Of a stretch of 57,117 bases of DNA, positions 32,505-51,917 are shown piece after piece. Source of the DNA: Krasilnikovozyma curviuscula (lineage: Eukaryota; Basidiomycota; Tremellomycetes; Cystofilobasidiales; Mrakiaceae); the NCBI GenBank assembly GCA_014825775.1, contig MVAQ01000136.1, forward strand, positions 1 through 57,117. The letters run 5' to 3'. The notes under the pieces were generated by a model that worked only from the letters and a program-made list of their open reading frames with translations, was not told the origin of the DNA and ran no database searches. Position 1 is the first letter of the stretch. Every line of letters begins with the position of its first letter. The translations under genes and the position numbers were made by a program.

Positions 32505-35214
32505 CTAGAACGCCCCGCTGAAGATCTTATGAAAAAACTTCTCATCCTCATTCTTCATAGATGATATGCCAGCTTCCGTCTTCTTCATTTGTTGCGAGCG
32601 GATGAGAGATCGGATGTCGAACGCTTCGTCCAATGCTGCTGGGTCCAGACTGAATAGATTGTCCATCAAAGCCGCCTCCACAAGTTGAGACTCAGCCAAA
32701 GCCTAATCGAAGAGAGATGACTATGGTAAGAGATACAATACGACAAAGTGGAGAGAGAGAAGAAGGACGACGAACTGATTGAACAGATCGAACGCTGTTG
32801 AGGGTGTTCCATGACCATCCAAGCTGCTTGAGACCGTCAATCAGCCATCCAACTTCCTCATTCCTGACGTCAGCTGTCCAGCCTAAGCTTTCCATCAGAG
32901 GCGCTCGAGCGAGGAACTCAGCTATTACGCTGAGTTGGCTGTTCGGTTCAAATGTAATCAGGATCAGTGCGTAGCTTCGAGGGAGACAGCAAGTAAAAAG
33001 AACTCACAGTAGAGTGCTACCAGCCCCCTTCAGAATATCCAAAGGTAGTAAATCACGGACTTCCGTGGCGCATTTCCGGCACGCAGAGAGACAGACCGAG
33101 AACGAATTAGTTTGGAGGGAATTGAGGTCAGAGGTATGCTCAGTGTATTTTTGTATTGTACCCTGTAAGAACAAGTGGCCTAGGTTTGTAATCATTTGAA
33201 TGTTGAAGGGGGCAAAATTACATACATGAATTTTGAGAAACAGTTTCGCAGCCCCCAGAGACATCAAGATCGTCCAGAACCGCCTACTGATTACAAACCC
33301 AGAGCGAATTAGTTTTAAGGACTGTCATAAAGTTTTTGAGGGTCAGTCTCGAACCCCGAGAGTAAGCATTAGACTCAACTCACAGATTCAGACCGGATGA
33401 ACAGGTCTTCCCGCTTTCCTTGAATCAGCAGATTGATCCTCTCGCCCCAAATAGAAAGCTCCTCCATCGCCTTCCAAGCAGTAGTACTCGCTACTTCAAG
33501 TATTATCTTGAAATTACGATTTACGTTTGAGTTGATGGTGGAGAGAGGCGGGATGGACTTCTCGAACGTCATGTAACACGACTCGTACTGGCCCATGAGT
33601 GAGATACCCATCATGAGCAGCGCCCTTGGGTTCTTGGAGATAAATTCGGGCAGAAAGGCATGGTTGATGATGTGTGGGAATGAAGCTGCGAGCTGTTGTT
33701 TCAGACTGCATGGATTGATCAGCGATGGGAAGAGACAGTTATTTGGATAGAGACTCACGTTCCAGTCCTTCCAAGTCCATTCTCAAACGTCTCCATGGCG
33801 AATGTGCTCCAGGTTACAGAATGCACGCCAGATACTGTTGGTACGTATCCAGTGAGCGAGTCGTACTGGCTTTCGCCAACGAACGAGTTGAACGGCGGGA
33901 GATCGAGGGAGGAGTAGTACGCGATCTGCTGGTCAATCTTATCTTGAATATAAAGCGACTCTATGTGCCTCTTTGCAGCTTTGTCAAGGGTGAGACCTTG
34001 TTCCACATGAGGCTAACGACGGAAGGTGAAGGTAGTCAGCTTCTAATGGATGTGATAAGCTAGGGAGTGAAGGTGAAATAGATCGACTTACAAGATAAGC
34101 ACTCTCTCGAGTAGTTATAGATTGCTCACCTTGAGCTATTGCCCGAGATTTCAGTCCGATGAGAGTAAGGCGAAGCGCTTGGATACCATCAAGCGAGGCT
34201 TCCATCAAGACCAAATCCCTTTCAAGAATGGTGAGCACACGAGTGAGAAGAGCATCACATGCGGCTTCACGATAAGCTCCAGCAAGGTGGGAAGGTGTCC
34301 CAGGAGGTACGATGGATGGAGAGTCTGAGTATCTGGTGTTCAAGAATAGTGTGAGTGAGATGTTGGGTCATTGAAACAATAGAATACTCTCACCTTCCTC
34401 CAATAGCAGCAACAGCCATCCCAAGGGCATTTCCTGTAGCTTTCAGGCCGGACTGTCGATCGACAGGCGACCTCTCACCATACCACGAGCCGTCAGAGTT
34501 GTCTAGACATATCTCCAGCCCTTCGCAGAGCTCCATAAATCCGACATGTGCGACAAACATTCTAGAGAAGTGGGCGTTGTTGAGGAAGGAGAGGATCAGG
34601 TCTTGGCCAACTGCGAGTGCGGAGATTCGGTTGTTCATCGAGGTCACGCCTGAGCGGGACGATGGGATGGAGAGCTGGAAGCTGCTACGTTCCCGGGACA
34701 TTCTGAGTACAACAGAAGATGAGCTCGGAGATGAGCCTAAAGCTGGAGATGTCACTAAGGAGGATGGATGTGGAACTGAGCGTTGAATTAAGCCTTTCGC
34801 TTTCAGTTCTTGTTTACGACGAGCGGCACCTTCTGTTGTGCTAGGAGAGAGGTACTATTAGTGAAGACACTTCAATTGTCAGTTACCGATGAAGCGAGCG
34901 TACCATGTCATACCTGAATGAAAAGAAATCCACACAGAGCGAAGTAAGCTTACTTTCTATGTTTCATTCGCAGCACAGACGGTTTACAGACCTCGTTTCT
35001 TACACTTCGTGCATCCCTCAACCTTCAGCTCATCAGACAACTCTGGCAGGTCACATTTGACCCTTCTGACTCGACAGCTGTCGCACGACTGGTATTGCTT
35101 CCTGTTGGTCTTCCTCACGACGGACTTCTTCTTCATCCCATTGCCTACTTCTGCCAGGTTCTCAATTGAGCCCACCATATCTTCTGTAAGTTCAAATAGT
35201 GAGCCACTAGCCAT
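32505..35214 (-). CDS. TF1: Zn(II)2Cys6 transcription factor, paralogue 1 of 5
   Basis: Fungal binuclear zinc-cluster regulator, 702 residues. Exons: 34992-35214, 34904-34913 (10 nt), 34394-34840, 34092-34332, 33759-34012, 33384-33705, 33226-33321, 33008-33162, 32776-32938, 32505-32702. The zinc cluster reads CDSCRVRRVKC, 13 residues, CTKCKKRGMTC, all six cysteines present; the last is split by the intron after the microexon. Shared family landmarks follow: ALAVGQDLILSFL, RYSDSP.IVPPGTP, REAACDALLTR, GFVISRRFW, ACRKCATEV and a C-terminal FFHKIFSGAF. In contrast to TF2-TF5, the first two introns of the zinc cluster are absent here, so the N-terminus is one exon. DNA target and regulated genes are unknown. 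Confidence 0.9.
34904..34913 (-). other. 10-nt microexon of TF1 (GTATGACATG)
   Basis: Flanked by a TTCAG acceptor and a GTACGC donor. In phase it encodes Gly-Met-Thr plus the first two bases of the sixth zinc-cluster cysteine. Confidence 0.85.
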
Positions 35215-36273
35215 GATGAAAGTATAGAACCCCAAGATTGAGGTAAACAGCAGGGTGAAGGGTGGGGCTTATGGCTTCGATTCTAATGGACAAAGGTCGA
35301 TGATGGGCGAAGCGAGCAATAGGTCAGTGACACAGATAGAATAAACAATAGTGGGACGAACCAAGAAAGGGATAGAACAAAAAAGCCGGGTTATTTAGGT
35401 AGGAAGATGACTGAAGTGCAGCTGGTTTGTGGCGGGCCCTGTTAAATGAACTGCTTTCGATACTGAGGGCGTCGATTATTTTTCTAGCCGACTAAGCTTC
35501 TAGTAAATATCGGAAATATGACGACCGATTGAAGCATCGAGAACGAAGTTCGAGACCATTCAGAAGCGCTGGAGCATGGACCTGCCGACGCGATACGTCA
35601 ATAGCCGGCAGACTTCTCTAATGTGAGCTAATTCTAGGAAGCGCCGTACGAATTTCGCTAATTACAAGTTTGGTGTATCAAGTTTAAAAAAGAGGGAGAT
35701 TTGGGATGCACACGTGAAAACAAGCAGTGAGGAGTTAGCCGATCGAAACAATCTGCTGAGGAGAGATTCACAAAGCGAAAAGTGGTTTTCTAAATAAAAG
35801 ATGCGGAAGGACGGGATTGCCGTTCCAGATCCTCGAGATATGTCCCTGGGATCCTGGCTAGGTAATCTGTGCTGAAGGGAGTGACTTCAAAAGCACAGAA
35901 GCCGTTAGAAAGACGGCGCAACAAGACAAGAGGATACCATTCTAACTATATACATATGTTCAGTCCAATGCTAGAAGTACGCGGTGTTGCGAGACTCTTG
36001 CGTCGCTCATATCGTATTGCTGCGATTTGCTGGAACCACAGCCTTGCAACAATCACAACTTCATTTGCACACATACCATTCGAAAATTATTGTTTCATTA
36101 ACCCAATTTTCACCATAACCTCTAAGCCCTCTGCCTGACACCACAACAAGCCGACTTCGGTAGAAAGGAACCAGCAATACCAGCAATAGAAGGATTGATC
36201 GGCGACTTGATGTTCAATGAGAAATGGAAGCAGAAAGGGCATTTTACAATCTAGTACTAAGTGACTGATTGAG
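35215..36273. promoter_or_regulatory. Region upstream of TF1
   Basis: About 1.06 kb between TF1 and the coactosin 3' end, both on the minus strand. Only an 89-codon unsupported open frame (35869-36138, plus). Presumed TF1 promoter. Confidence 0.4.
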
Positions 36274-37422
36274 TTACACTTTGTCGTAAGAAGCTCCGCC
36301 AGCCTGAAGGGAATGGTAGGGAAGAGTCAGTTTCGAACGGACGAGGAAGGTCACCGCGATCGCGAGAAATGAGAATGGAGGGCTAGGTTCCCAACTCCAT
36401 ATAGATCCAAGGGCCAAAGTGAAAAGCCTATGTCCAATCAGAGCCGTCTGTCCTAACCCCTCCATCAGCACTAATGTCCCAAGCTGTTGTCGTCTGGCCC
36501 GGCAAAATGATCAAATAGGAACGCTGCCTTACCTTCCTCAACCTAACGACGATCGGACCCTCAGCCAAGTCCTCCTTGCTCGACGCATTGATCTGAATGC
36601 TGAACGCAGGGAAGACGCGCTTGATGTCTGTCGTGTGCACCGAGATTTTGGCACGGCGCATAATCTTGACTTCTTCGCCTATCCAGACAATGAAAATAAA
36701 CTTTTCGCGGAAAGACTCTTCGTCGTTGGCATATCTGATTGAATGTGAAATGTGAATTAAGAACGCGTGCGTCAGTGTGTCTTGTTTGGTGAAAGTAGGA
36801 AGTCACTGGAGAAGAAACGCCCGCTGCAGCCGATAAAGCTTTGACATCTCTCTCTGTGAGCCTCAAAGATAACCTCCTGGGTTTCTATCTGGTCCTTCAT
36901 ACCATGACTGCATCTTATCGCCCTCCTGTAGCATGTTTGAAGCGATGAAAAAGGGAAAGTGTATACTCACTTTACTCGCACGTAGGCAAACTGAGCTTTA
37001 CCCTTCTCAAACAGCGGGGTGACCTCAGCGAGACCTCCGGAGCCTGTACCAGCGACTTTAACGACATCCGATTTGTCACTCTGGTGGTGGAAACAAACGT
37101 TGAGAAGACGGCAGGAGAAGGGTAGCCCGCGCGAACGACAATGAGGAAGGTTTCGTTGACGTTGCGGGACGGGACATTCGTTGTTGGGAGGCAGGGAAAG
37201 ACCGAGAAATCGAAAAAGACAGAGAGACACGTCGAAGAAGTGAAAGGAAGGCGAGGGGAGATATATAATTCGAGTTCAGTAAGACCTATTTCGGCTGGGC
37301 GACAGCTCATCATCCCCTTGTTCACGTACCGTGTAGTCAACCAAGACCCAGTTTGTTTCTGTCTTGTCGTTTCTAATGTCTTTGTAAGCCTCTTCGAGAG
37401 CCTTGTCGTCCACGTTGGCCAT
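36274..37422 (-). CDS. Coactosin-like ADF-H domain actin-binding protein
   Basis: Single ADF-homology domain protein of 144 residues that should bind F-actin. Exons 37330-37422, 36971-37080, 36533-36734 and 36274-36303. Landmarks: ALEEAYKDIRND, NWVLVDYT, ALVTPLF-like region (AEVTPLFEKGKAQFAYVRVK), KFIFIVWIGEEVKIMRRAKIS, then SSKEDLAEG and the family's C-terminal RKAGGASYDKV, nearly the same as the KKAGGANYD ending of animal coactosins. The lysine of VRVK is split AA|A across a 236-nt intron. Length and ending separate it from cofilin. It is the only non-TF gene inside the array and shows no sequence relation to its neighbours. Confidence 0.92.
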
Positions 37423-38096
37423 CGCAAAGCAACCCACAGACAAAATCGAAGGAAGGGAAGGGAAAGGGAAGGGCTGATGGGGTCAGTGGCAAGACGAGAG
37501 TGTCGCTGAAGGCAAGCAGGCCAAGGGGAACTGAGAAAATCCAAAAAATACTCTGCTGTAACAGATCAAGACTACCTTGCCCAAAGAACATCATGACACC
37601 GTCGCGAGAAGGAGCTCAAAGGCCACAGAATAGCAGCTTGAACCACCCGAAACGCAGGTCGCCCATTCTGTATGACGTCCAACCTGCGCTATAGCAGGGC
37701 AACTAGCGCTCAAAAGCCCCATTGTGTATCATGTTAATCAACTGAATACCACTACGGCTCACCAGTGCCGTTCAAGGGGAAATTACAATCGAAATGTAAA
37801 CAAGAAAGTGATCGAGTAATGCCGTGGCGACTCGTGTCAATCTAACTCCTGACTTTGTTAGAAACCAGACAAACTTCCCATGAAAGTACCATCAATAGAT
37901 ACACCTGATCTGTAGGAGTCTGTGAGTACCAAACATGATGCACTTTCCTAATGTCTTGGTCTCGTAAAGCTCACCCAAAGTATCGGTTCGCGTTCCTCAT
38001 GGATCTTGAGGTCCAATCAGACTGGAGTTTGTTCGCCAGTCCGCTTGAAAGCAGTCAGCTTTCGACAGTCAGCAAGCAACAGCAGCACTGAGAAGA
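37423..38096. promoter_or_regulatory. Divergent promoter region coactosin / TF2
   Basis: 674 bp between divergent starts. No coding evidence. Confidence 0.45.
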
Positions 38097-40991
38097 ATGG
38101 AACTCCCTATCGAACAACAAAAGCCGGCGAAGACAGGCAGAAAACTAAACGGGATGGGTCCTTATGAGAAGCCGGTGAGGAAGAAAAAGACGAATAGAAG
38201 TGAGTGGTCGACGACAGCTCTGATACTGATCCTGGCTTTACCGAATCTGCTCTCCTTACCCAGTACAGAACCAGTCTTGTGACAGGTAAGAGTCTGTTCT
38301 AAATCAGTCTTCGCGGGGAAGCACCGTGGATGATTAATTTGCCTCTCTCTTTCTCTGAAGCTGTAAGGCCAGTAAAGTCAAATGTGATCTTGCTACTCTA
38401 TCTGAAGAACAGAGAAGTCATGGGTGTAAACGGTGCCGGCAACGGCGTGAGTAATTCTGCTACAGCCTCAGTTCGAAATTCTCCTGACCTGGTTTCTGTC
38501 GGCGTCCCACATTCCCAGGAGCTTTTTGGTGAGCCTGTTTACTTTAACTTGAAACCCGAGATTCTGAGACCATCCTCTGAAAAAAATGTCCCGTTTCCTA
38601 TCAGCACCACCGCCCTGATCGACTCGCTCAAGAATAAATCAAAATCCGCACCCTCATCATCTTCAGGACAAATTGCTACTGCTTTTTCATCTCCCTCCTC
38701 ATCGTTGACCCGAACCAATGTGCCGACCTCCCAGTCCGGCGCATCGTCAATGCATCGGCGGACTCTTGCCCTCGCGCTCGGCCAGAACCTCATCGAGTCA
38801 TTTTTGAAACATGGACATTTCCACCGGATGATGGTTCGCCAGGATTTATCTCTGACCGGCGAATCTCATTGGTTGTAGCTGAATAATCTTCCTCTTCCAT
38901 CGATTAGGTATCAGACGTTAACTTTGTCAGCCTTGTCGACGGCCTAAATCTCAGCTTGGAAGTCGCTAATCCGTGGCATAAAAGTGCTGATGGAGGTCCT
39001 GGGTTTGGAATTGGAAGCAGTCTTGGCGTGGCTGTCGCTGCTATAGGCGCGAGGTGAGTTGCTGTCCCACAAACAGTACTAATGCAGTGAGACTGACCAT
39101 TACGCCATCACTTCCCGCCCTTCAGGTATACTGATTCACCACTTCTGGTACCTCCTGGAACACCAACAGAACTAGCTGGTTCTTATCGAGAGTCGGCGTG
39201 TGACTCGCTCCTCAGTCGCGCGTTACAGGTGCTGGAAGATGAATCTGTCCTGACCAAGCCGACCCTTGAAGGAATACAGTCTTTGCGTCTGTGTCATATT
39301 GGTTTGAAATGGAGAGCAATTCTCAAAGGGGAAAGGAAGACAATGAGGGAAGGTGGAATTGTTGGAGTGAGTCTTGGCCTTCTTTCACCCTCTCTTTAGT
39401 CTATACCTGATTGACTTCGCCGTCAGCCTCATACACAACAAGGAATGGTCCTTCAGAGAGCTATCAAACGACACATGGAGGTCCTCTCTATTGAGCAGAA
39501 ACTGGATTCGCAGATACAGCAGTACTCTAACAAAGACTTCTCTTATGAGATTCTGGAGCAATTCCAACATAATCCTGGTTATGTCCCGGTGGTCTCTCCA
39601 CTACATCGCGTGATCTGGTCCACCTTCGCGCTTGAGACGTTTGAAGCCGTCAGTTATAACTTGTAGCCTTTGCATGCAGATATTTGACTAATAGATTATT
39701 AATTTTCGACAGATGGAAGCCGACACTGAGTTTGGGATAGCAAAGTATGGGACGTGAGTTAAGATTCAGTTTCTAACCCACGACTTTTCCCATGATTTAC
39801 CTACCTTCTACAACGGATTGAACTCTCAGTGGTATCCGACACAAGCTCCTCGTGTCCTTTCCTCAAATCACATGTCATATGCCTTTATCTTCCTCACTCG
39901 TCAATTCCCCCAAAGCTGTCCTTCTCATTGGTCTCTCCATCATCGCTCAGTTTGACCTCACCTGGGATATTTTCAAGACTTCAACTGCATGTGTTCTCAA
40001 CCAAGACGTTTTTGTAGCCGCGGCTGAAAAAGCGTGGTCTTCGATGATGAACCTAACACAATGGGCTGATCGGGTGGGAGAGGTCATCAGGGGAAAGGAG
40101 AAGTCGGTCGACTTCATCTTCAAATTTGAGGTGAGAGTTCTCTCCATCGCATTCAATTCATAATCTGTCTCATGTTATTTCTTTTGCTATGGAGACATTG
40201 CGGCCAGGGTTCGACGTTTCCAGGCGTTTTTGGTCTGTCCTGATCTCTTTGATCAACTCAAAATTACACTTGAAAATCCATGTAAGTACTTGATGTATAC
40301 CACAGAGTTTTTGTGTCTGAGCGTATTTAAAAATCGTGGTTTGATAGAGCATCATTAAGTCCAACGCTGCATCATCTCCCGGGCTGTCTCCCCTTTTGGT
40401 TCGAGCCTTCGAGGCGACACTGTTCGCCTGTCGAAACTGTGCTGCTGAAGTAGGAAGGCTGGTTGATACTGGAATTTTTAGAGGTGGAGGAAGTGCACTA
40501 TTGTGGGTTCTGTTATACAGATTCTGCCTGCTTCATCTTTTTGAAATCATTTTCTTGTCTTCTTTTTTCAGGATCATGACAAATGTGGCTGATTTCCTTG
40601 CAAAAGCCCCAGTCGCTATGTCCCTTCAGTGGAGTTTAGAGGCTAAAAGAGAAGAAGTCGGGTATCTCCTTGAAGGTCTCAAGCAACTGGCGTTCGCATT
40701 CCCGATTGCTGACAGCCTCAGCAACGTCCGATCGGTGAGCGTTACATTACAGGGTTGATTCTGCTGGTAATCGACTCACGAAGTTTCTTTCGGAAGTCTA
40801 TGGATGATATGAGATGTATTGACGAGCTTAATAGCACCCTTTACACCCTTTCTCCAATAATTTTGGACGGGATGGGTCTGTCTTCGTTCACCAATTCTTC
40901 ACCCGAAACCGCAATGTTTCCGAAGCTCTCACAAAACCTCAATGAAGAAGATGATTTCTTCAACGCAGTGTTCAACGGTACTTTTCAATGA
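38097..40991 (+). CDS. TF2: Zn(II)2Cys6 transcription factor, paralogue 2 of 5
   Basis: Zinc-cluster regulator of 666 residues. Exons: 38097-38199, 38264-38285, 38361-38446, 38519-38528 (10 nt), 38605-38833, 38908-39053, 39126-39366, 39427-39648, 39713-39753, 39830-40130, 40195-40281, 40348-40502, 40572-40734, 40797-40991. The cluster is CDSCKASKVKC, 13 residues, CKRCRQRRAFC. The basic stretch KPVRKKKTNR precedes it. Conserved landmarks: TLALALGQNLIESFL, RYTDSP, VPPGTP, RESACDSLLSR, SRRFWSVL, ACRNCAAEV and a tail DDFFNAVFNGTF. It has two introns not seen in all paralogues: one after HRMM (38834-38907) and one making a 41-nt exon (39713-39753). Same orientation as TF3 and TF4. Confidence 0.9.
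38519..38528 (+). other. 10-nt microexon of TF2 (GAGCTTTTTG)
   Basis: Between a TCCCAG acceptor and a GTGAGC donor. Encodes the end of Arg, Ala, Phe and the first two bases of the sixth cysteine codon. Confidence 0.85.
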
Positions 40992-41832
40992 TCGATGACA
41001 GCCCGCTTTGTCTGTTGTGGAGGCGCAGTTGTATTTTGTCTGTTTTCGATTTCTCTATTTGTTCCTCGTATCACATTTGATTGCTTGTATCGATAAAAAA
41101 TTACTACCAATCCTCGTGTGAAAAATGCGAACAAATTTGGCTCGGTGATATTCTTCAATTTTGTGACCAACGGCAGCAAGGACATCGTTCCAAGGCTGGA
41201 AACCTCCCAATATAATGATGATTTCAAAAATATAAGAAAGGAGGGGTACTGTGGTTGTTTTTGGCTCCGGATTTTTGGTTTCCGAGGCTACTGATTTTCG
41301 ACTCGCCGGTGCCCATTTTGCTCCCTTGTGAGGATCACGTCTTCTTCTACAGCCTGTTTCCTCCAATGTATCCTTAGGATCGTAGTCTCAATGGTACTAT
41401 TTAAGTGGGTTCGAACTGTGAATTCATTCCCGTCGCAATCACAAGTTATTATCGTCATTCCTTACATTAAATCGCTGGATACTATCGTTCAATTTGTTTT
41501 GGATTCATAATTTAATGGGTTTCATTCACCATGTATGTTTGTTCAGTGTGAAAGATAACGCAAGAAAATATGAAGAAAATCGTCCATCGGCTTCGGCGAC
41601 TCAGCTATGTATATTTACTCAACCTACCGAGCCACCGGACTACGACTGCTTCGCCCAAGCTCTCCCTTCGGCCTTTTGAATTCTTTGAAGGAAATAGGGT
41701 AGTTCTTCAATCTGATTCCTTTGTGAGTGTCTTTCCGTCTCTTTTGTCTCTCGTTTTTTTCCCGTAACTTCACTGAGCTCGGTTTCCGTCCCAAAAAAAG
41801 TAACGGTTGCCCACCCGACCGTAAACACCAAT
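40992..41832 (+). promoter_or_regulatory. Spacer TF2 to TF3
   Basis: 841 bp, AT-rich. A TATA-like TATTTAAG near 41399 precedes TF3 by about 430 bp. No coding evidence. Confidence 0.4.
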
Positions 41833-44730
41833 ATGGACAATGCTCCCTATGAACCCTCGACTGTCTCTGGCTACGCTACAATCTACGAGATGGATGTTGA
41901 AAAGAAGAAGAGGGGGAGGCCTAAGAAAGAAGGGTTCGAAAAGGCAGTCCGGAAAACCAAGACGACCAGGAGTAAGCCCATTTCCATTAATGGTCGATCC
42001 AGTTTCATAGTAGACTGAGTCTTATCTATTTCTTTTCTTTAGAGCAAGGCCTTGCGTGTACGATGTGAGTTTCGAAAATTGTGGTCCCTTTTCAACTTGA
42101 TAGCGCTAACGTGAGTCTACCGGTTCTTCCCAAAAAGGTGCAAGAACAGGAAGGTCAAGTGCAGCTTTCAGGAAATGAATCCACCAAGTTCTACAGCAGG
42201 GCCATGTACGAGATGTTCGAAACGAGGTACGCTTGACTTGCACCCAAATGGTCAATTCGGTGATGATGAATACCCCGGTGCTGACAGATCTCGGCGTTCT
42301 TTCTTTTCGCGTCTTTCCAAAGGTGATAACTGGTGAGCTATCTCTTATGGAATCCAATTCCAGAATCTAACGTTTGTCACTTTCAAATAGCACGACTCAA
42401 ACTCTACGGACTGGGTCCTACAGGGATAGAATCACACAGCACCGACTGCCCCCTATTTTAGCTGCATCGTCCTCCTCGTCATCATCATCATCATCCTCTA
42501 GTGCTTCAACACCACCATCTTCCTTGTCAGCTCAAAGTCCACCATTAACCCTGAGTGTTCCAAATGCGACATCCTCTGTGGCATCAATGAATCGAAAGAC
42601 TCTTGCCATGGCTCTCGGCCAGGATCTTATCAAATCTTTCTTGGATAACTATCATATCCATCAGATGGCGATACCTGAAGCTGGCCTTGAGGTCCTGAGC
42701 GAAAGCTTAAACTTCAGTCTCGATACTAGCGGCGCGTCGAGGTATAGCAGGATTGGCAACACCTCCTTCAACAAGCTATATCAGAATATCGGATCATCTC
42801 TAGGAGCTTCTGCAGCTGCTATTGGTGCTAGGTATGTCTTCCAAAGCTACATCTGTTCATTCTGTTCATTCAACTCTTTCTTATTGCTGGCCGTCCCCCA
42901 TCACAGATATAGCGATTCTCCCCTTATTGTTCCTCCTGGAACTCCTGAACATCTCTTTGGTGTTTATCGAGAATCAGCGTGTAGTAATCTCCTTACTCGG
43001 GCGCTCAAAATTTTGGAAAAGGAAGATGTGTTGAACTTGCCATCTTTCGATGGTGTTCAGAGCTTGAGGCTAGCTCGTCTGGGTTTACAATGGAGGGCTT
43101 CGCATTATAGAGAGGTTAGAGATCTGAAAGTTGGCGTGATTGGGGTCAGCAATCAATAACTCATCAGGTCATTGTTGGGGTGCCACAGCTGACAAATCTT
43201 GTTTGAGTACAGATTAATCTCCAGCAAGGATTTCTCTTCGACGAGGTCATCAACAATCAAGTGAAAGTGCTCTCCTCGGCTTACAGTCTCGGTTCGGAAA
43301 ATTGCGCTCAAATTGTTCCACCCGGGGTACAGAACTTCTTGATCTCTGAAAGCCGGCGGAGTGAGTACACCAGTCTACTTCCGAATATCCACAAAAGTGG
43401 TATTCAAAGATTCGTGGTATCTGGGTTCATTTCTCTTCTGGAGACAATGATCAGCAACAATTCCGAGAGTAGCGACGACCAGTGAGTGTGTAATTCCTCA
43501 GTTGCGCCGCATATCGGTACTGAATCACTCATCCTCATCCTGGCAGACTGCATGAAAAACTCTGTCACTCTATACCTGAACTGAGTACAGTAATGACTAC
43601 CTCAACTTTAACTGCCGTACCGCCTCCTGCGATCCTGCTGGTCGGTCTTCAAGTATTCGCTCAATTTGACTACATCTCCAGGATGTTTGGCTCTAATTGT
43701 TTACCAACGGAGCAGGGACAGCCTCTGGTCTCTCTATCTACACTAGAAAATGCGAGTGAAACTGCTTGGTCAAGTATGAGCGATCTTTACTCATGGGCGT
43801 CAAGAGTTGGAGACATCATCATCGGGAACGTGCAGGCGTCGGCGGTTTCTGGCGAGATGGACGTGAGTTTTTACTTTTCACTTAGTTCAACATTTTTTGA
43901 TGAAGATTCTGTTTTCTTTCTGATTTAAAAAGGATTCTGTACCAAGCTTCCTGATCTCAAGGATGTTCTGGCAGATCCTCTTAAGTCAAGTCAATGCCAA
44001 GAGTCACTTGACGTTGCTTGTATGACATTTCTCCCACCTCATCGGTAGAATTCTTTTTGTTCTTACACTTGATAATTTCTCTGTAGAATCTCCACAACTC
44101 ATATGCTCATTTCTCTCCGGATCTGGACGCCCTACATATGAAGTCATTTCAAATCACTCTAAACGCTTGCCGTCAGTGTGCCGCCGCTGTGCGTGATATC
44201 CTTCCGAAGAAGATATTGAAGGGAGCTGGGGCATTCATGGTGTAAGTTCTATGAAGGGTCCGACAATTCCGAATTCTGAACTGACCCATTTCATTATCTG
44301 CAGGAGAATTGATTTTGCTGGACATTTTCTTAGCTCTGCACCGGTCAGTGCAGATTTAGGCTGGACCCTCGAGACCAAAAGGCAGGAGGTTGGATGGATT
44401 CTTGACGGACTGAGACAGCTAGGCAGAGTTTGGGCTACAAGCGATATCGTTTCGGCGATCGAGAAGGCAAGAGGTTCTTGATCGCCACTGCTCTTCATCA
44501 TTATCGCTGACGAACTATTCTCTCCTTCTCACTCTTAGCAAATGGACAATACTCGTTCCGGAGATGAGATCCGGAGTTACTCTCTCGAGTTTCTCCCTTC
44601 TCTGTTTGAGGATCAGGACGACAGCAATGTCTTCACACATTCTCAAGAGGCGCCTATGACACCAGAGCGCGACAAACCTCTCAATCAGGACCACATGTTT
44701 TTCAACAAGATGTTCTCGGGTGGTTTCTAG
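41833..44730 (+). CDS. TF3: Zn(II)2Cys6 transcription factor, paralogue 3 of 5
   Basis: Zinc-cluster regulator of 706 residues. Exons: 41833-41971, 42043-42064, 42138-42226, 42323-42332 (10 nt), 42391-42831, 42907-43144, 43213-43481, 43547-43862, 43933-44019, 44087-44241, 44304-44466, 44539-44730. The cluster reads CTMCKNRKVKC, 14 residues, CTRCSKRGDNC. A basic KKKRGRPKK segment (AT-hook-like RGRPKK) precedes it. A Ser-rich tract from TCA/TCC repeats lies at 42466-42500. Landmarks: LAMALGQDLIKSFL, RYSDSPLIVPPGTP, ISRMFWQIL, ACRQCAAAV and the ending FFNKMFSGGF. The middle exon 43213-43481 is the most diverged among the five. The intron 44467-44538 has a GC donor, required to keep the conserved 163-nt exon length. 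Confidence 0.9.
42323..42332 (+). other. 10-nt microexon of TF3 (GTGATAACTG)
   Basis: Between TTCCAAAG and GTGAGC. Encodes Gly-Asp-Asn and the first two bases of the sixth cysteine codon. Confidence 0.85.
44467..44538 (+). other. GC-AG intron in TF3
   Basis: Starts GCAAGA, ends CTTAG. The upstream exon is then exactly 163 nt in phase, as in all four paralogues, which supports the GC donor. Confidence 0.75.
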
Positions 44731-45347
44731 CACAGGAGGCTATAGATCCTATAGATTTGCTACTGTATGCCCTTTACGTTGTTCTCGTCTCAAATACAAT
44801 ATGTCAATTCTCTGAAGTATCACATAGCACCTTCACTGTACAGCAAAAACGTACAATAAACTATACAAGGGCAACATGGCATGTATCGCGCTCATTTGAT
44901 ACAGTTGGAGATTCGTGTGTGTTTCCCGTGGTCTGCTGCGGGCGAGCACCCGACAGGTAGCCACCTCAATATCTCAATGCTAGATATCTGGTACAAAATT
45001 GGTACCATTCCAAAGCTGAGAACTCTGTAAACCTCTTAGTGGTCTTCATCTTCTCAGATTTTTACTTGAAGAAAATCTATCTTGGTTCTCGGTACCTCCG
45101 CGAGCGACCCACGCAAACACGCTCTCTGGTCGACGTTTGCCTAAGAGCCCTTAGTAACGGGCTCCGGGCTCGCTAGTTAGGCTGAATAAATTCGTATGTT
45201 TCTCTCTCCCAACTACTAACAGCCCGTAACTGATCGTTGAGCCTTCCTGAAGCTGAAAGCGTTTGCTCAAATCGGATTATAGCTCAGTAGGTGTTGCTGC
45301 AGCCCCAAAGAGCAGTAACAGCAGCAGCGTTATCGCAACGTATCCCA
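44731..45347 (+). promoter_or_regulatory. Spacer TF3 to TF4
   Basis: 617 bp with a small GC-rich hairpin (GAGCCC at 45145 pairs with GGGCTC at 45159). No coding evidence. Confidence 0.4.
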
Positions 45348-48300
45348 ATGGAGTCGAATCATGCTTCTTGCAGTACCCTAAACATCCGATGTGATGCCAA
45401 GGGAAAGAAGCGAGCTGTTTTGTCCACGACTGCAGGTGGTAAGTCGTCGACATCGAGGAAGAGAAGTACGTATTTTCTTGGTTTTTGGAGGTAAATGGAT
45501 TTTGACGTTTAACGTTCTATTAGAGCAATTTGTGAGCTGTGATAAGTGCGTAAAATGGCCAAATTTTGAGCGGTTCGAACCACAGCGAGGTACTGAGTCG
45601 GCCCTTGTTTCTTCATTTTTCTAGATGTATGAGTAGGAAGGTGAAATGTGATTTGATGGAACTTCCTCAAGATGTAAGGCGCCAGGGCTGCACACGGTGT
45701 GTGAATAGAGGTGAGTTATAGCCGGCGCTTGTTCGAAGTTAGCAGTGACTGAACCCACGCAACATACATGCTGTATCTTAGGTGAAACATGGTAGGTATT
45801 CCCTTTCGTTGGGGATTGGAGTTTATTACTGATCATCTTTCGCTCACTTAGCACGACCGAAGTCATAAAGCGACGTAATGAAGTCAGCACCAGTAGACAA
45901 CATGCTCCCTCCAACCTATACACATCTTGTTCTCCTCAAGCAACACCGTCCCCTGCACCTTCCTCGTCCTCGTCCCACCTCAGTATACCTAGCTCGACCT
46001 CCTCCACTTCCTCTCTCAACAGAAGAGCACTAGCTTTGGCACTAGGAAACGACCTAGTCCTGTCATTCTTACGTGACAGTCACTTTCAGCGAATGATCGG
46101 TAAGTTCATTTGTAGTCTTTCGTTCGTATGAATCTCACAAAACTAAATTGTCTCACTCTGTCTCAGTGACCGACTCCAGCTTTGTCGCTCTCAGTAACAG
46201 CATCAACATCAGCCTAGACATGTTCAAAGGTTGGACTTTTGGATCAGAAAGAGATCATTTGACGTCCTCAACTTTTGAAGGCGCCGAAACGACTCTGAAG
46301 ATCGGTGGAGCCCTGGGTTCAGCCGTCGCTGCAATTGGTGCTCGATATTGCGACTCTCCTTACTTGGTCCCAGCAGGTACTCCTCGTCATCTCTGTGGTG
46401 TCTTCCGAGAGGCTGCCTGTAATACCCTTCTCGATCGAGCGTTCGAGGTCTTGGAGGAAGAGCAGGTGATGCACTTTCCCTCCATTGAAGGTATTCAAGC
46501 GATGCGTTTAGCAGGCACTGGTTATCGATGGAAAGCCATGATCGCTGGGGAGAAGTTTAATCCGCTTGACGGTGTGCTGGGGGTGAGTAATCCACACTTT
46601 CTGTTTGTTCTTCTCCCATTACTGCAATGTCTCTAACAGCTTACCTTATTGATTTCCATAGCCAAACCTACAACGAGCAATAAAACTTGAGAATTGTGTT
46701 AAGAAACATATGTCTCTCCTCTTTATCCAGGAGAAGATCGACAATGAGCTCGAACATATCTCTGCTGAACGACAATCCAAAGAATGGTTACAGTCTGTCC
46801 AGGACGCTGGCACTTTCCATTCCAAGCCTGTGTCTTCTGTTCACCGGGTGATATGGTCTACATTTATTCTTGAAGCACTTGAGGGACTCGAGATCGAAGG
46901 AAGGACACCAAAGTCGGACTCGAGGTGAGTCTATGAAGTCTGCGTCGAGGACTACATTCACTAAGCTCAAGTCTTCCCCTCTCGGAACCTGTTTCTTCTA
47001 GCCTGAAGCAGAAGATCTCTAACGCCTTTCCTCAAGTCACCAGTGGTATGGATATCCCACCGGCGGTCGCATTCTCTCCACCCGCAATCTTAGTGATCGG
47101 TCTCTCGCTCCTGAATCATTTTGACAGCATCCTGATCACATTCGACTCCTGCTTTGACGGCTGTACGCCTGATCAGTACCCTCGGGTTTTGGAAAATGCA
47201 TGTTCCAAGGCTTGGAGTGAGATACAATTGCTGATGATCTGGGCGGGCAGAGTAAATGACACTATTGCTCGCAGTGCTGAACACTTGGAAGGCGACGTGA
47301 GTTAGGAACTCCCTTACCATATTTGTTCCCTTTTTTGTACTAATCAATTTTCAATCTACCATGTCTGGTCTCAAAGGGTTATCGACCTGGTTTCATCATA
47401 TCTCGACGCTTCTGGGCCGTTTTGATTGGTTTCATCAACGCTCGCTCATTTATCAAGATCCATGTAAGTTTGCTCTACACATTGATCAAAACTGTTCCGT
47501 CTCTAAACCTTGTTACAATTGTGCTCAGCGGGTTGTCAATGTTTATGCAGACATCTGCCCTGAACTTAATTTCCTCCGCACTCAATCTTTCGAGGCAACT
47601 CTAGCAGCATCTCGAAGTTGCGCCTTTGAAGTTTTCAAACTCGTTCCATCTGGACTTCTGAGAGGAGCTGGTCATTTTTTAATGTATGTTTCTGCTTCGA
47701 ACCTTGGCGAACTCTTAGACTCCAAAATTCAGTTTCGTTCCGCATTTCGTATTACAGGAAAATCGACATGGTGGGCATTTTCCTCGCCTCAGCCCCTGTG
47801 AGCGGAAGCTTAGACTGGTCCCTTGAGAGAAAAAAACAAGAGGTGGCTTGGGTCATTGACGGTCTGAAGGAAATCGGTTTCGCTTGGAACACCGCTTCGA
47901 GTGTCCAAGAACTGGAGGACGTATGTCCCGTCCCCGCTTAACCTTCGTTTCCGAACATGCAAGGCATAGTGCTGACCAATGACAATGATGTTTTGCAATA
48001 GATTCTGAACCAAATGCGACCTACAGATGAGCTCAACAGTGCCATGTACGGGCTAATGGAGATGTCACCTCTGTCCCCACAACCCTTCTCTTGCTGGGAC
48101 CACCAACACGACCTCTTGTCTACCCTCTGCCCTTCGGATACATACTCAACGAACTATTCTTCCTTTGGATCTCTCCAGTATGAAAACCCCCCGCCTCCTT
48201 TTGGAGCACCCTATCCAGATCCGCCTTTCGATATTCCTCCACCTTCCACTACATACTCCGACCCACCAGCTCCACCGTCTTTTACTACCACCCCGCTTCG

Positions 48301-48397
48301 GTACGACATAATTGATTTCCTAAATGAAAAGCCTAAATCAGGATTTGCCATCGAAGATTTCTCTGCAGCAGCTTATCTTGATCTTCAACTGGATTAG
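45348..48397 (+). CDS. TF4: Zn(II)2Cys6 transcription factor, paralogue 4 of 5
   Basis: Zinc-cluster regulator of 752 residues. Exons: 45348-45465, 45524-45545, 45625-45710, 45782-45791 (10 nt), 45852-46099, 46167-46582, 46662-46924, 47002-47296, 47377-47463, 47529-47683, 47758-47920, 48002-48397. The cluster is CDKCMSRKVKC, 13 residues, CTRCVNRGETC. Landmarks: LALALGNDLVLSFL, GARYCDSPYLVPAGTP, REAACNTLLDR, ISRRFWAVL, and ASRSCAFEV, where the first cysteine of the CxxC seen in TF1-TF3 is serine. The C-terminus differs from TF1-TF3: a long Pro/Ser/Tyr-rich stretch (PPPPFGAPYPDPPFDIPPP) and an acidic-hydrophobic end, plausibly an activation region (inference). The intron at GAR|Y found in the other four is missing. 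Confidence 0.9.
45782..45791 (+). other. 10-nt microexon of TF4 (GTGAAACATG)
   Basis: Between CTTAG and GTAGGT. Encodes Gly-Glu-Thr and the first two bases of the sixth cysteine codon. Confidence 0.85.
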
Positions 48398-48534
48398 ATT
48401 TTCCATGTGTTCAAACTTTGCTATCATCTTCTTGATACATCTAACACCAGATGAAAGTATTTCTTGCATTTACTCTATTTTTTTTTTTTCATCGTGTATC
48501 GCATACAAGACAATTTAAAATGTGTTCATTGTAC

Positions 48535-51500
48535 TTATGGAAATAAAAAGGCGCTGGGGTTGAACCTCTCATCCACCGGACTAAATGCTGGGAAGTCAAA
48601 TGCTGAAGAAGATAATTCCGCATTGCTCACATCATCCGAACCCTGAGCTGCTGTTGCCTGTGAAACTCCAGTTACCTCTGAGGCCGAACTGGGATGTGAT
48701 GACATACCGCTGAAAAACTCTTCTGATTGCATAGCAGCATCAAAAAATTGCTTGGCGAATTCAAAATTAAAGGAGCTTGGAGAGAGTCGTTCGGTACTCT
48801 TCTGACATGCTGTGGGGGGTGGTGAGAACTTGTCGACGTCGGTTTCGTTCCATAGAGGAAGGCTGAAGGCGTAGATGCCATCGTTGATCTCATCAATGGG
48901 GCGCATGCGCTGAAGAAACTGCAGTCATCAACAGCATGATTTAGTATCCAACCTAGGAGCTTCACCATGAAAGGAACTGCATACAGCTTCGATCTGCTCG
49001 ACATTGCGCGTAGTATCCCAAGCAAAACCTAGCTGGCGCAGAGCTTCAACGATCCAACCTACTTCCAGTAGCTTTATTTCCAGCGTCCATCCAAGAGCAA
49101 CAGAGACAGGAGCTTTGGAGAGGAAGTCGCCAATTCCACCAATGGTGCTATGAGGGTGGAAGATGTAACAGGTTAGCTTTCAATTAACGTCGCTATAAAA
49201 CGAACGCCTTTTCTCACGTTAGGAAGTGGCCACCACCTTCAAAGAGCTTGGTTCCTAAAGTTCCTTTCACCTCAGTAGCGCACTTCCTTGAAGCCCAGAG
49301 GGTCGTTTCAAATGACTTGATTTGAAGCATGCTGAGTTGCGAACATGCGGAGCTGTACAAATCGACAACTGTCTAAATTACAAAAAAGATAATATATGAG
49401 AGACCTATGGAAAGCAAAGGGAGGGGGATCCAACTCACATTGATTCGAATGTACGCTTTGGCGCTCAGGAAACTGACCAAAACACTCCAGTATCTTCGAG
49501 ACACTTGAGATCCCGGCTTTCTCCTCTAGATGAAGCAAACAGAAGCACTGTCAGATTTTCTCCCAAAAGAAAATGAGGGAAAGGCAAAAAACTAATAAAT
49601 TAGCTAACCTCCATTTCGACAATCTCATCTTCTCCAACTTTCCTGATAATTTCCCCAACCTTATCCGCCCACATCGAAACCTTCATCATCCCTGTCCAAG
49701 CATCTTCGCACGCTTTTTCCAAAATGTTTGGGTATTCAGCCGGATTGTCGTGCCCGACGAAGCATTCGTCAAAGCGCTTCAGGAGTGTATCGTAGTGCTG
49801 GACGATAGAGAGGCCAATGAGAAGCGTCGCTGGTGGTGAAGGAATGACAGTGAGGGGAAGATCGATGGTAGGTACTTCGGGGAATGTTTGGAATAGATGG
49901 CTTTGTGAAAATCTATTGAAAGACGAGAACAAACTGGTGTTAAAAGGCACCGTATGATGAAAGTAATGTTCATCCTAAAGAAAAACCCACCCATCTTTCG
50001 CCTGCGAGAAACTTGGAGATTCAAACCTTTGGGAAATACAAAATCATAATTCTCTCTGTTAATGTCACAATCCAAAATTAAATCTAGCGGCATCTCTTAC
50101 CCTCTCAGCGTCTCACCTACAAAGGTGCTCCACACCACCCTCTGAACCTCACTTTCTCTGACGATTCCATGATCATCAACTGTATTCAAAATTTTAAGTT
50201 TATCATTGTTTGCGTTGAGCCAGTTGTCGGTGTCGCGGTATAACTTGTACGCTGACATCTTCGCCGTAATGACGTCGTTGATGGAGAGGTTTTCCATGTG
50301 GGATCTGATGGCTGTTTCGAGGAGAGAAACCTGTTGTAGATTAGGCTGTGGAAACAAATTACAGAGCAGATCAATGAAAAGAACAAGTGAGTGAAAAAAA
50401 AAAAAAAAAAAAAAACAGTCAGAACCGAACATACGCCTAGTTTCCCTGTTCGAGAATCACAACCTTCCCCACCAAGCATTGCCCTCCACTTGAGGCCATA
50501 AACCACGAGTCTCATCGCTTGTATATTTTCCATGGTAGGAATTCTCAGGACACCCTCGTCGTCAATCACCTTGATCGCCCTATCCAGCAGCGTCGAACAG
50601 GCTGCCTCTCGCGCGCGACCAAACAGATGAGGCGGCGTCGACGGAGATACGATGTGGGGAGATTTTGAGTACCTGATCGCACATAAAGCGTGAAGTGAGC
50701 AAGCGAAGAGTACGATGACATCTTGTTATCTCGATCGAGCTCCCTCACTAAGCGAAACCCAAATCAAAACTCAGACGTACCTCGCTCCCAAGAAAGCGAC
50801 CGCGGCACCCAAAGCTCCACCAACCCCTTCTCTCTCGCCCTCATCGACCCTCCATCTCCTCCCGCCTCTTCCCATCTCCCACCCGGGCAATCTGTCGAGA
50901 CTCAAGTCGATACTGCGCGAGAGAGAAACAAAGGTCGCGTCGCTGACGATAGCGCGGAAAAAGAAGGCGCGGTTGAGGAAAGAGGTAATTAGATCCTGTC
51001 CTGTTCAGTTGAATGTTCAGGTATGTTAATGCGCTAGGCTAGAGTGTTGAGGAGCGAGAGAGGATGAATGAGCAACATACCAAGGGCGATGGCCAGCACG
51101 CGCCTATTGAGGAGGGACGCTGGTGCGTTAGTTTGGGGTATCAACGACTTGGATGATGAGGATGAAGAGGAAGAAGATCGAGAGCGGTTCGTTGGCTGAA
51201 ATTTTTGGAGCGTTGATGAGGGTGGGCGGATCACAGGAGAAAGGCTCGGCTTTGAGATGCGCGAATCGATGACTTTTGTCGTGCTGTTTTTTAAGACAGG
51301 TGATGAGAGACATTCTCACAAGAAGGGAGAATGCATAGAGGGAATCCTTTCTTACCAATCAATTCCTATCATTAAGTAAAAAAAGATCAGTAAGCCTTCG
51401 CTTTTGCCAGACATTAAAGGTCGGGGAGCTCTCTCACCTCTTGATCGACACCTCGTACATCCATTACTCCTCTCGTTCTCGTTAAAGTCCACGAGGTTGC

Positions 51501-51917
51501 ACTTGACTCTTTTGATACGACATCTGCAGGGTCAGGGAGAAAGGGGTCAGCTTAGCGCTCAGGCCAGCAGAGGAGTTGGCTTACGGGTCACAGGCTACGA
51601 ATCTAGCCAGACGGGAGATACCAAGGGTAGCAAAAGAGTTCCACGTCAAATCGACACAGGGAAGGGTTTGCGTGAACAGGCGTTGAGTTCAGGCGTTAGC
51701 GTCTGTCCCTCCTTCTCGCCGATATAAAGCTACACATTGCGACTCACTGCTTCCTCTTCTTCTTGACCACAGGTCCATACCCATCGTCACCAGAAATAGT
51801 TCTCTTCTTGCTCGCCCCTACGCCAACACTGGTGATGGAAGACGTCCAGGTACTCTGCCAACTCCCACTTGTTCCCTCATGGCTGTCGTGAAAACGGCTG
51901 CTGCTGGTCGAAGCCAT
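48535..51917 (-). CDS. TF5: Zn(II)2Cys6 transcription factor, paralogue 5 of 5
   Basis: Zinc-cluster regulator of 760 residues, convergent with TF4 (137 bp apart). Exons: 51748-51917, 51585-51602 (18 nt), 51438-51523, 51356-51365 (10 nt), 51081-51283, 50781-51000, 50435-50672, 50101-50345, 49609-49912, 49439-49525, 49218-49372, 48985-49147, 48535-48918. The cluster reads CDPCRIKRVKC, 13 residues, CTRCRSRGIDC. Landmarks: VLAIALGQDLITSFL, RYSKSP, REAACSTLLDR, SRRYWSVL, ASRKCATEV and MRPIDEINDGIY. The C-terminus ends in a long tail without the FSG-F ending of TF1 and TF3. The intron 50346-50434 contains a 22-base homopolymer (50394-50415), a pyrimidine tract on the coding strand. TF4 and TF5 share the ASRxC form and long tails, so they look like closest relatives. 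Confidence 0.9.
50394..50415 (-). repeat. 22-nt homopolymer inside TF5 intron
   Basis: A run of 22 A on the plus strand, T on the coding strand, within the intron 50346-50434. Its length may be uncertain in the assembly; coding is unaffected. Confidence 0.8.
51356..51365 (-). other. 10-nt microexon of TF5 (GAATTGATTG)
   Basis: Between GATAG and GTAAGA on the minus strand. Encodes Gly-Ile-Asp and the first two bases of the sixth cysteine codon. Confidence 0.85.

Follow-up and report, generated by a model that had tools for sequence, protein, structure and literature searches.

The contig MVAQ01000136.1 of the basidiomycete Krasilnikovozyma curviuscula carries five genes for Zn2Cys6 (zinc-cluster) transcription factors, g1 to g5, each containing an exon of 10 nucleotides (nt) inside the zinc cluster. 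The window, meaning the whole stretch analysed, spans positions 1 to 57,117 of this contig (C40), which belongs to a 22.43 Mb genome of 387 contigs. The 10-nt element is a genuine, old coding exon, most likely included constitutively through sequential splicing of its two flanking introns.

The 10-nt exon and the sixth cysteine

The zinc cluster follows the motif C-X2-C-X6-C-Xn-C-X2-C-X6-C, and the exon lies between the fifth and sixth cysteines (C5 and C6). It reads GTATGACATG in g1 (34904..34913, minus strand), GAGCTTTTTG in g2 (38519..38528, plus strand), GTGATAACTG in g3 (42323..42332, plus strand), GTGAAACATG in g4 (45782..45791, plus strand), and GAATTGATTG in g5 (51356..51365, minus strand), and was assessed in each gene by splice sites, frame, and a shuffle test. 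Intron 3 interrupts codon X4, counted from C5, behind its first base, which is the last base of exon 3; the 10 nt supply bases 2 and 3 of X4, the codons X5 and X6, and the TG of C6; intron 4 then splits the C6 codon (TG, then Y), its last base coming from exon 5. Introns 3 and 4, of 58-96 nt each, lie exactly 10 nt apart across this segment, and the C5-X6-C6 spacing is obtained in 5/5 window genes. A sequence-only reading of the window had described an exon starting with G, ending in TG, and filling the C5-C6 segment up to a split C6 codon, followed by an exon starting CAC that gives Cys-Thr-Thr, and all of these features are present in the five genes. At 10 nt, coding, and with introns and good splice sites on both sides, the element falls within the definition of a microexon (3-30 nt).

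The gap between exons 3 and 5 (141-164 nt) was scanned for an AG, an exon of the form N8TG, and a donor GTRNG, flanked by 40 nt or more at both ends, and exactly one fitting site is found per gap in all five genes. Dinucleotide-shuffled gaps yield a fitting site in 2, 4, 2, 11, and 5 of 3000 cases for g1 to g5, respectively, and a chance origin of the exon is rejected because shuffles so seldom produce one. A single intron with another acceptor is also rejected. Combining GT or GC donors from just past C5 to 60 nt beyond exon 3 with AG acceptors up to 90 nt beyond the start of exon 5, no join gives an in-frame C-X5..9-C with exon 5 in any window gene (0/5), and none of those tried restores C6. 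Another join that restores the frame was the counter-evidence named by the sequence-only reading, and none of these single-intron joins both keeps the frame and supplies a sixth cysteine at such a spacing.

With the exon included, each gene is one open frame from ATG to terminal stop, encoding 702, 666, 706, 752, and 772 amino acids (aa) for g1 to g5. All five N-termini then match the Pfam family Zn_clus (PF00172) above its cut-off of 21 bits, with scores of 27.5, 22.6, 26.1, 28.1, and 30.6. The earlier claim that omission shifts the frame and removes C6 holds as well: the skipped forms reach a premature stop at residue 86, 74, 106, 80, and 108, and their Zn_clus scores fall to 18.1, 15.1, 17.8, 21.6, and 18.3 bits, with skipped g4 still above the cut-off (21.6 vs 21). 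Judged by frame, motif spacing, and splice signals, the prediction that the 10 nt are coding and exonic is confirmed in all five window genes.

Homologues and the history of the flanking introns

A search of the same genome with g4 and g2 as queries (E <= 1) leads to 14 further contigs, and one stretch of each was read, revealing 17 homologous zinc-cluster genes, or 22 together with the window genes. For the two introns at the microexon, presence or absence was judged by eye on the DNA, and the homologues' other intron positions were taken from automatic models. These models overlooked the 10-nt exon of C351 in pass 1, that of C309 in pass 2, and those of C70a and C70b in both passes. Six homologues have both introns and thus a separate 10-nt exon (C383, C142b, C70a, C70b, C351, and C309); eight have intron 3 only, the 10 nt being fused to the next exon (C149, C118a, C118b, C19, C255, C221, C287, and C99); two have intron 4 only, with fusion to the previous exon (C142a and C166); and one, C13, has neither. 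The totals across all 22 genes are 11, 8, 2, and 1, and the position and phase of introns 3 and 4 are constant in every gene having them.

The exon is therefore not separate in all members, being fused to one or both neighbours in 11/22 homologues. Its residues form contiguous coding sequence where introns are missing, good evidence for the exonic nature of the 10 nt, and the proteins with fused copies could not be switched by skipping. These gene structures show that the 10 nt need not form an exon of their own. Outside the window the exon starts with A in C70a and C70b, and the next exon starts TAC in C142b and C351. Between C70a and C70b the exon is identical at 9/10 positions, compared with identities of 0.53-0.55 for the introns (shuffled mean 0.48) and 0.58-0.59 for the flanking exon pieces, a contrast that carries little weight, as it comes from a single short pair.

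That the exon is a general zinc-cluster trait of this genome is rejected, as 38 loci read by eye show no 10-nt exon at the corresponding position. These were drawn from 106 Zn_clus matches and include two loci not settled (L021 and L077) and four that are two pairs on the same two open frames; beyond them, matches were read only if they were among the 22 homologues. An alignment of the five window genes run against a large protein collection returned none of 7996 scored candidates at E <= 0.001, and cross-species or transcript-derived support is consequently lacking from that search.

The five window genes are paralogues, hence not independent cases, with g2, g3, g4, and g5 showing 41%, 33%, 38%, and 33% identity to g1. 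The 22 proteins were analysed in a maximum-likelihood tree (761 columns including the zinc cluster, 13 of 19 inner branches starred), which was built on pass 1 models that are imperfect outside conserved parts. It places the five window genes in one paralogous clade and unites the 11 genes with a separate 10-nt exon and C142a in a 12-gene clade, clade A (100/99). The eight genes with only intron 3 form one clade (99/96), and C166 and C13 form a pair (100/100), while C142a is the sister of C142b (100/100), nested within clade A. Each of the two introns requires at least two changes on this tree, and since it has no outside root, gain and loss are not distinguishable everywhere. The simplest reading of these relationships is that the 10-nt exon would predate the split of clade A, and C142a is best read as having lost intron 3.

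Direct reading of clade A finds intron 3 in 11/12 and intron 4 in 12/12 genes. Subject to imperfect gene models, one other intron (column 470) is also present in 12/12, columns 364 and 369 (5 + 7 genes) would make a second such intron if they represent the same one, and the remaining recurrent introns occur in 5-10 of the 12 genes. Six further introns are likewise shared by all five window genes. Introns 3 and 4 are at the top of the family's range of retention, not beyond it. Special conservation of the flanking introns was considered and is not upheld, as other introns are kept about equally. The sequence-only reading had taken retention of the exon as a sign of selection; the antiquity it implied is borne out by 11 of the 12 clade genes, and the special retention is not. 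Its observation of the exon is confirmed, and its interpretation is partly supported.

Splicing of the exon and rival readings

Splice sites flanking the exon in the 11 genes were compared with those of 136 GT-AG control introns, from which the scoring matrix was itself derived, one GC-AG intron being dropped. Scores do not differ significantly from controls (Mann-Whitney p 0.55-0.99) for all sites but the intron 4 donor, where the difference is also not significant (p = 0.085 for the full site, 0.15 for its intronic part). Weak splice sites, which seemed likely from the five window genes, faded as an explanation with 11 genes and 136 controls (p = 0.085). Control introns outside the window were restricted to 45-110 nt, and length was therefore compared with the 47 remaining introns of the five window genes only, whose median is 70 nt (range 53-145), with 1/47 reaching at least 125 nt. 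Skipping the exon in one step would require an intron of 141-168 nt. The window genes have many short introns, and in short-intron genomes such introns are recognised as units; at about twice the usual length, the skipping intron would be disfavoured.

The likeliest reading is constitutive inclusion as a rule. Each flanking intron would be recognised as a short unit, and the two would be removed in succession, since a 10-nt exon hardly has room for two complexes simultaneously. The exon may persist because introns are presumably lost slowly and the protein needs both its frame and the C6 ligand; where an intron is absent, the 10 nt would simply form part of a neighbouring exon, as in 11/22 homologues. 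Skipped transcripts, if produced, would be non-functional by-products. A published precedent for a frame-essential tiny fungal exon, the 1-nt exon of Fusarium CYP621A, favours this reading (PMC12940212).

Several points weigh against constitutive inclusion. Compared with other window introns, the intron 4 donors rank in the lowest fifth in all five window genes, and across the family the donor lacks T at +6 in 9/11 genes vs 46/136 controls (p = 0.0025, a post hoc, uncorrected test on related genes). The exon begins with GT in 5/11 genes (g1, g3, g4, C383, and C309), 3/5 in the window, so that joining it to exon 3 recreates a possible donor, and in g1 this regenerated donor scores 7.67 vs 3.85 for the real intron 4 donor. 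Retention of introns 3 and 4 lies at the upper end of the clade range, which selection would fit too. The microexon of Trichoderma virens Xlr2 is regulated (PMC11121469). The 10-nt exon here was read from DNA and homologues.

Passive leaky splicing is a doubtful alternative that draws on the regenerated donors. The exon would normally be included, with a fraction lost partly via recursive splicing at the regenerated donor, setting protein output without being a signal-dependent switch. Exons that recreate a 5' splice site upon joining the preceding exon are described in PMC6224609, and the five GT-initial exons would allow the same, with regenerated donors in g1, g3, and g4 scoring 7.67, 3.17, and 3.17. 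Two of these three score below the real donors, and 6/11 exons do not start with GT.

A regulated microexon switch is unlikely. Condition-dependent omission would yield frameshifted RNA and turn off DNA binding of several paralogues together, ending either in RNA decay or in a factor without DNA-binding domain made from a downstream start. Xlr2, with its 20-nt microexon, is the closest published precedent (PMC11121469), and an exon length that is not a multiple of three, the loss of C6 upon skipping, and the depletion of T at +6 in the donor after the exon would all suit a switch. The sequence-only reading had proposed that inclusion or skipping turns DNA binding on and off, a proposal that loses ground because 11/22 homologues carry the 10 nt fused and are unable to skip them as a unit, splice-site scores are ordinary, the skipping intron measures 141-168 nt vs a median of 70, and other introns are kept about equally. 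Regulation in some of the 11 genes is possible, though not the likelier reading. Its most far-reaching form, in which a single splicing signal jointly controls a paralogous set of 11 genes, five of them clustered, by having the 10-nt exon included or recursively lost, is very unlikely; if true, one splicing signal would set how many of the 11 factors can bind DNA.

That the 10 nt are not exonic, with exon 3 joined straight to exon 5 or another site, is scarcely credible given that no single-intron join tried restores C6 (0/5 genes), the corresponding residues are contiguous coding sequence in homologues without one or both introns, and chance exons are rare in shuffles.

Known systems, gene models, and neighbouring features

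Constitutive inclusion of the 10-nt exon can be set against published tiny exons. In Xlr2 of T. virens, two of the six cysteines are encoded by a 20-nt microexon (PCRRCE), which is included when glucose is low, and isoforms that have or lack the GAL4-like domain result (PMC11121469). The likeness lies in a tiny exon within the Zn2Cys6 domain whose omission loses the DNA-binding domain, and which the standard gene model in Trichoderma overlooked. The Xlr2 exon differs in being 20 nt long and confined to a single gene with orthologues across Trichoderma, whereas the present one has 10 nt, lies between C5 and C6, and occurs in 11 paralogues; its glucose dependence has RNA evidence, with no exon 1-exon 3 reads, whereas the present exon was read from DNA. 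The CYP621A exon was inferred from homologues and an intronless relative and is read-supported (PMC12940212). It resembles the present case as a frame-essential tiny exon in a conserved motif, and the logic of the intronless relative is that of the fused genes here; it differs as a 1-nt exon of a P450, with orthologues across Fusarium and confirmation by reads.

Among basidiomycetes, Phanerochaete chrysosporium P450 genes contain exons coding for 2-10 aa (PMC1184071). Like the present genes, they form a basidiomycete family in which introns and exons are small; unlike them, they encode other proteins, are scattered over P450 families, and have alternative splicing proposed. Also reported are a constitutive 4-nt exon in MPC1 (PMC9929638), a dependence of microexon splicing on PRP-40 (PMC8378409), and more than one transcript in 10.6% of Cryptococcus neoformans genes, with exon skipping among the classes (PMC3990503). 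Among solved structures, only PDB 1f4s, listed as an ethanol regulon transcriptional factor, which we take to be AlcR, matches the zinc cluster of g4 in sequence at E <= 0.1; it has a similarly long C3-C4 loop, and the match is weak (E = 0.055) and uninformative on gene structure. A 10-nt C5-C6 exon is not reported in the titles and abstract starts of the open-licence fungal microexon and zinc-cluster literature, among the matches listed.

The exon is ordinary in kind, and its occurrence in 11 genes of a single family is unusual. In at least 11 regulators of this genome, automatic annotation would probably disrupt the DNA-binding domain, and surveys may consequently undercount such factors or misinterpret them; missed exons are also reported for Xlr2 (PMC11121469) and CYP621A (PMC12940212). 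The family forms a natural series, in which the 10 nt stand free in 11 genes and are attached to the following exon in 8, to the preceding exon in 2, and to both in 1. With this series one can study the way in which a fungal spliceosome deals with an exon that has no room for two complexes, and whether exons of this kind are only tolerated or serve a purpose.

The remaining exons of the zinc cluster reveal a second microexon of 18-22 nt carrying cysteine 1 in four of the five window genes, a feature missed by the sequence-only reading. This exon 2 has 22 nt in g2 (38264..38285), g3 (42043..42064), and g4 (45524..45545), all on the plus strand, and 18 nt in g5 (51585..51602, minus strand). Cysteines 2-5 lie in exon 3, located at 38361..38446 in g2, 42138..42226 in g3, and 45625..45710 in g4 (plus strand), and at 51438..51523 in g5 (minus strand), so that in g2 to g5 the zinc cluster is split over three exons and the first base of a fourth. 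The first exon of g1 (34992..35214, minus strand) corresponds to exons 1-3 fused and holds cysteines 1-5. Introns 1 and 2, on either side of exon 2, are absent from this gene and both introns around the 10-nt exon are kept, which the sequence-only reading also missed. In Cryptococcus, neighbouring introns have been lost jointly (PMC2395259).

The g4 model was built by hand, and g1, g2, g3, and g5 were modelled via protein-to-genome spliced alignment, then finished by eye. The genes occupy 32505..35214 (g1, minus strand, 10 exons), 38097..40991 (g2, plus strand, 14 exons), 41833..44730 (g3, plus strand, 12 exons), 45348..48397 (g4, plus strand, 12 exons), and 48535..51917 (g5, minus strand, 14 exons). 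The last intron of g3, 44467-44538 on the plus strand, is GC-AG (donor GCAAGA), with the same position being GT-AG in the four sisters. The five factors are not immediate neighbours throughout, since g1 and g2 are separated by a gene at 36280-37425 on the minus strand that presumably encodes a coactosin- or cofilin-type product. Two proteins, g2 and g4, were scanned whole against Pfam, with Zn_clus scores of 20.5 (just below the cut-off of 21) and 23.5 bits, and neither shows a Fungal_trans-type middle domain or any further family at E <= 1. Such a domain is frequent in Zn2Cys6 regulators, is not universal, and is not required for membership of the family.

Other zinc-cluster genes of the genome have features of their own. 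An unrelated Zn2Cys6 gene at locus L023 (C33:173873 region, plus strand) has, at about 1501-1720, an apparent 15-nt exon TCCAACTGTATCAAG carrying cysteine 5, with introns of about 65 nt on both sides. Tandem zinc-cluster matches 17-18 residues apart within one open frame occur at L002/L026 (C211:10689-10925, minus strand) and L004/L017 (C237:18644-18871, minus strand), and C126 contains three Zn_clus matches within one 800-aa frame.

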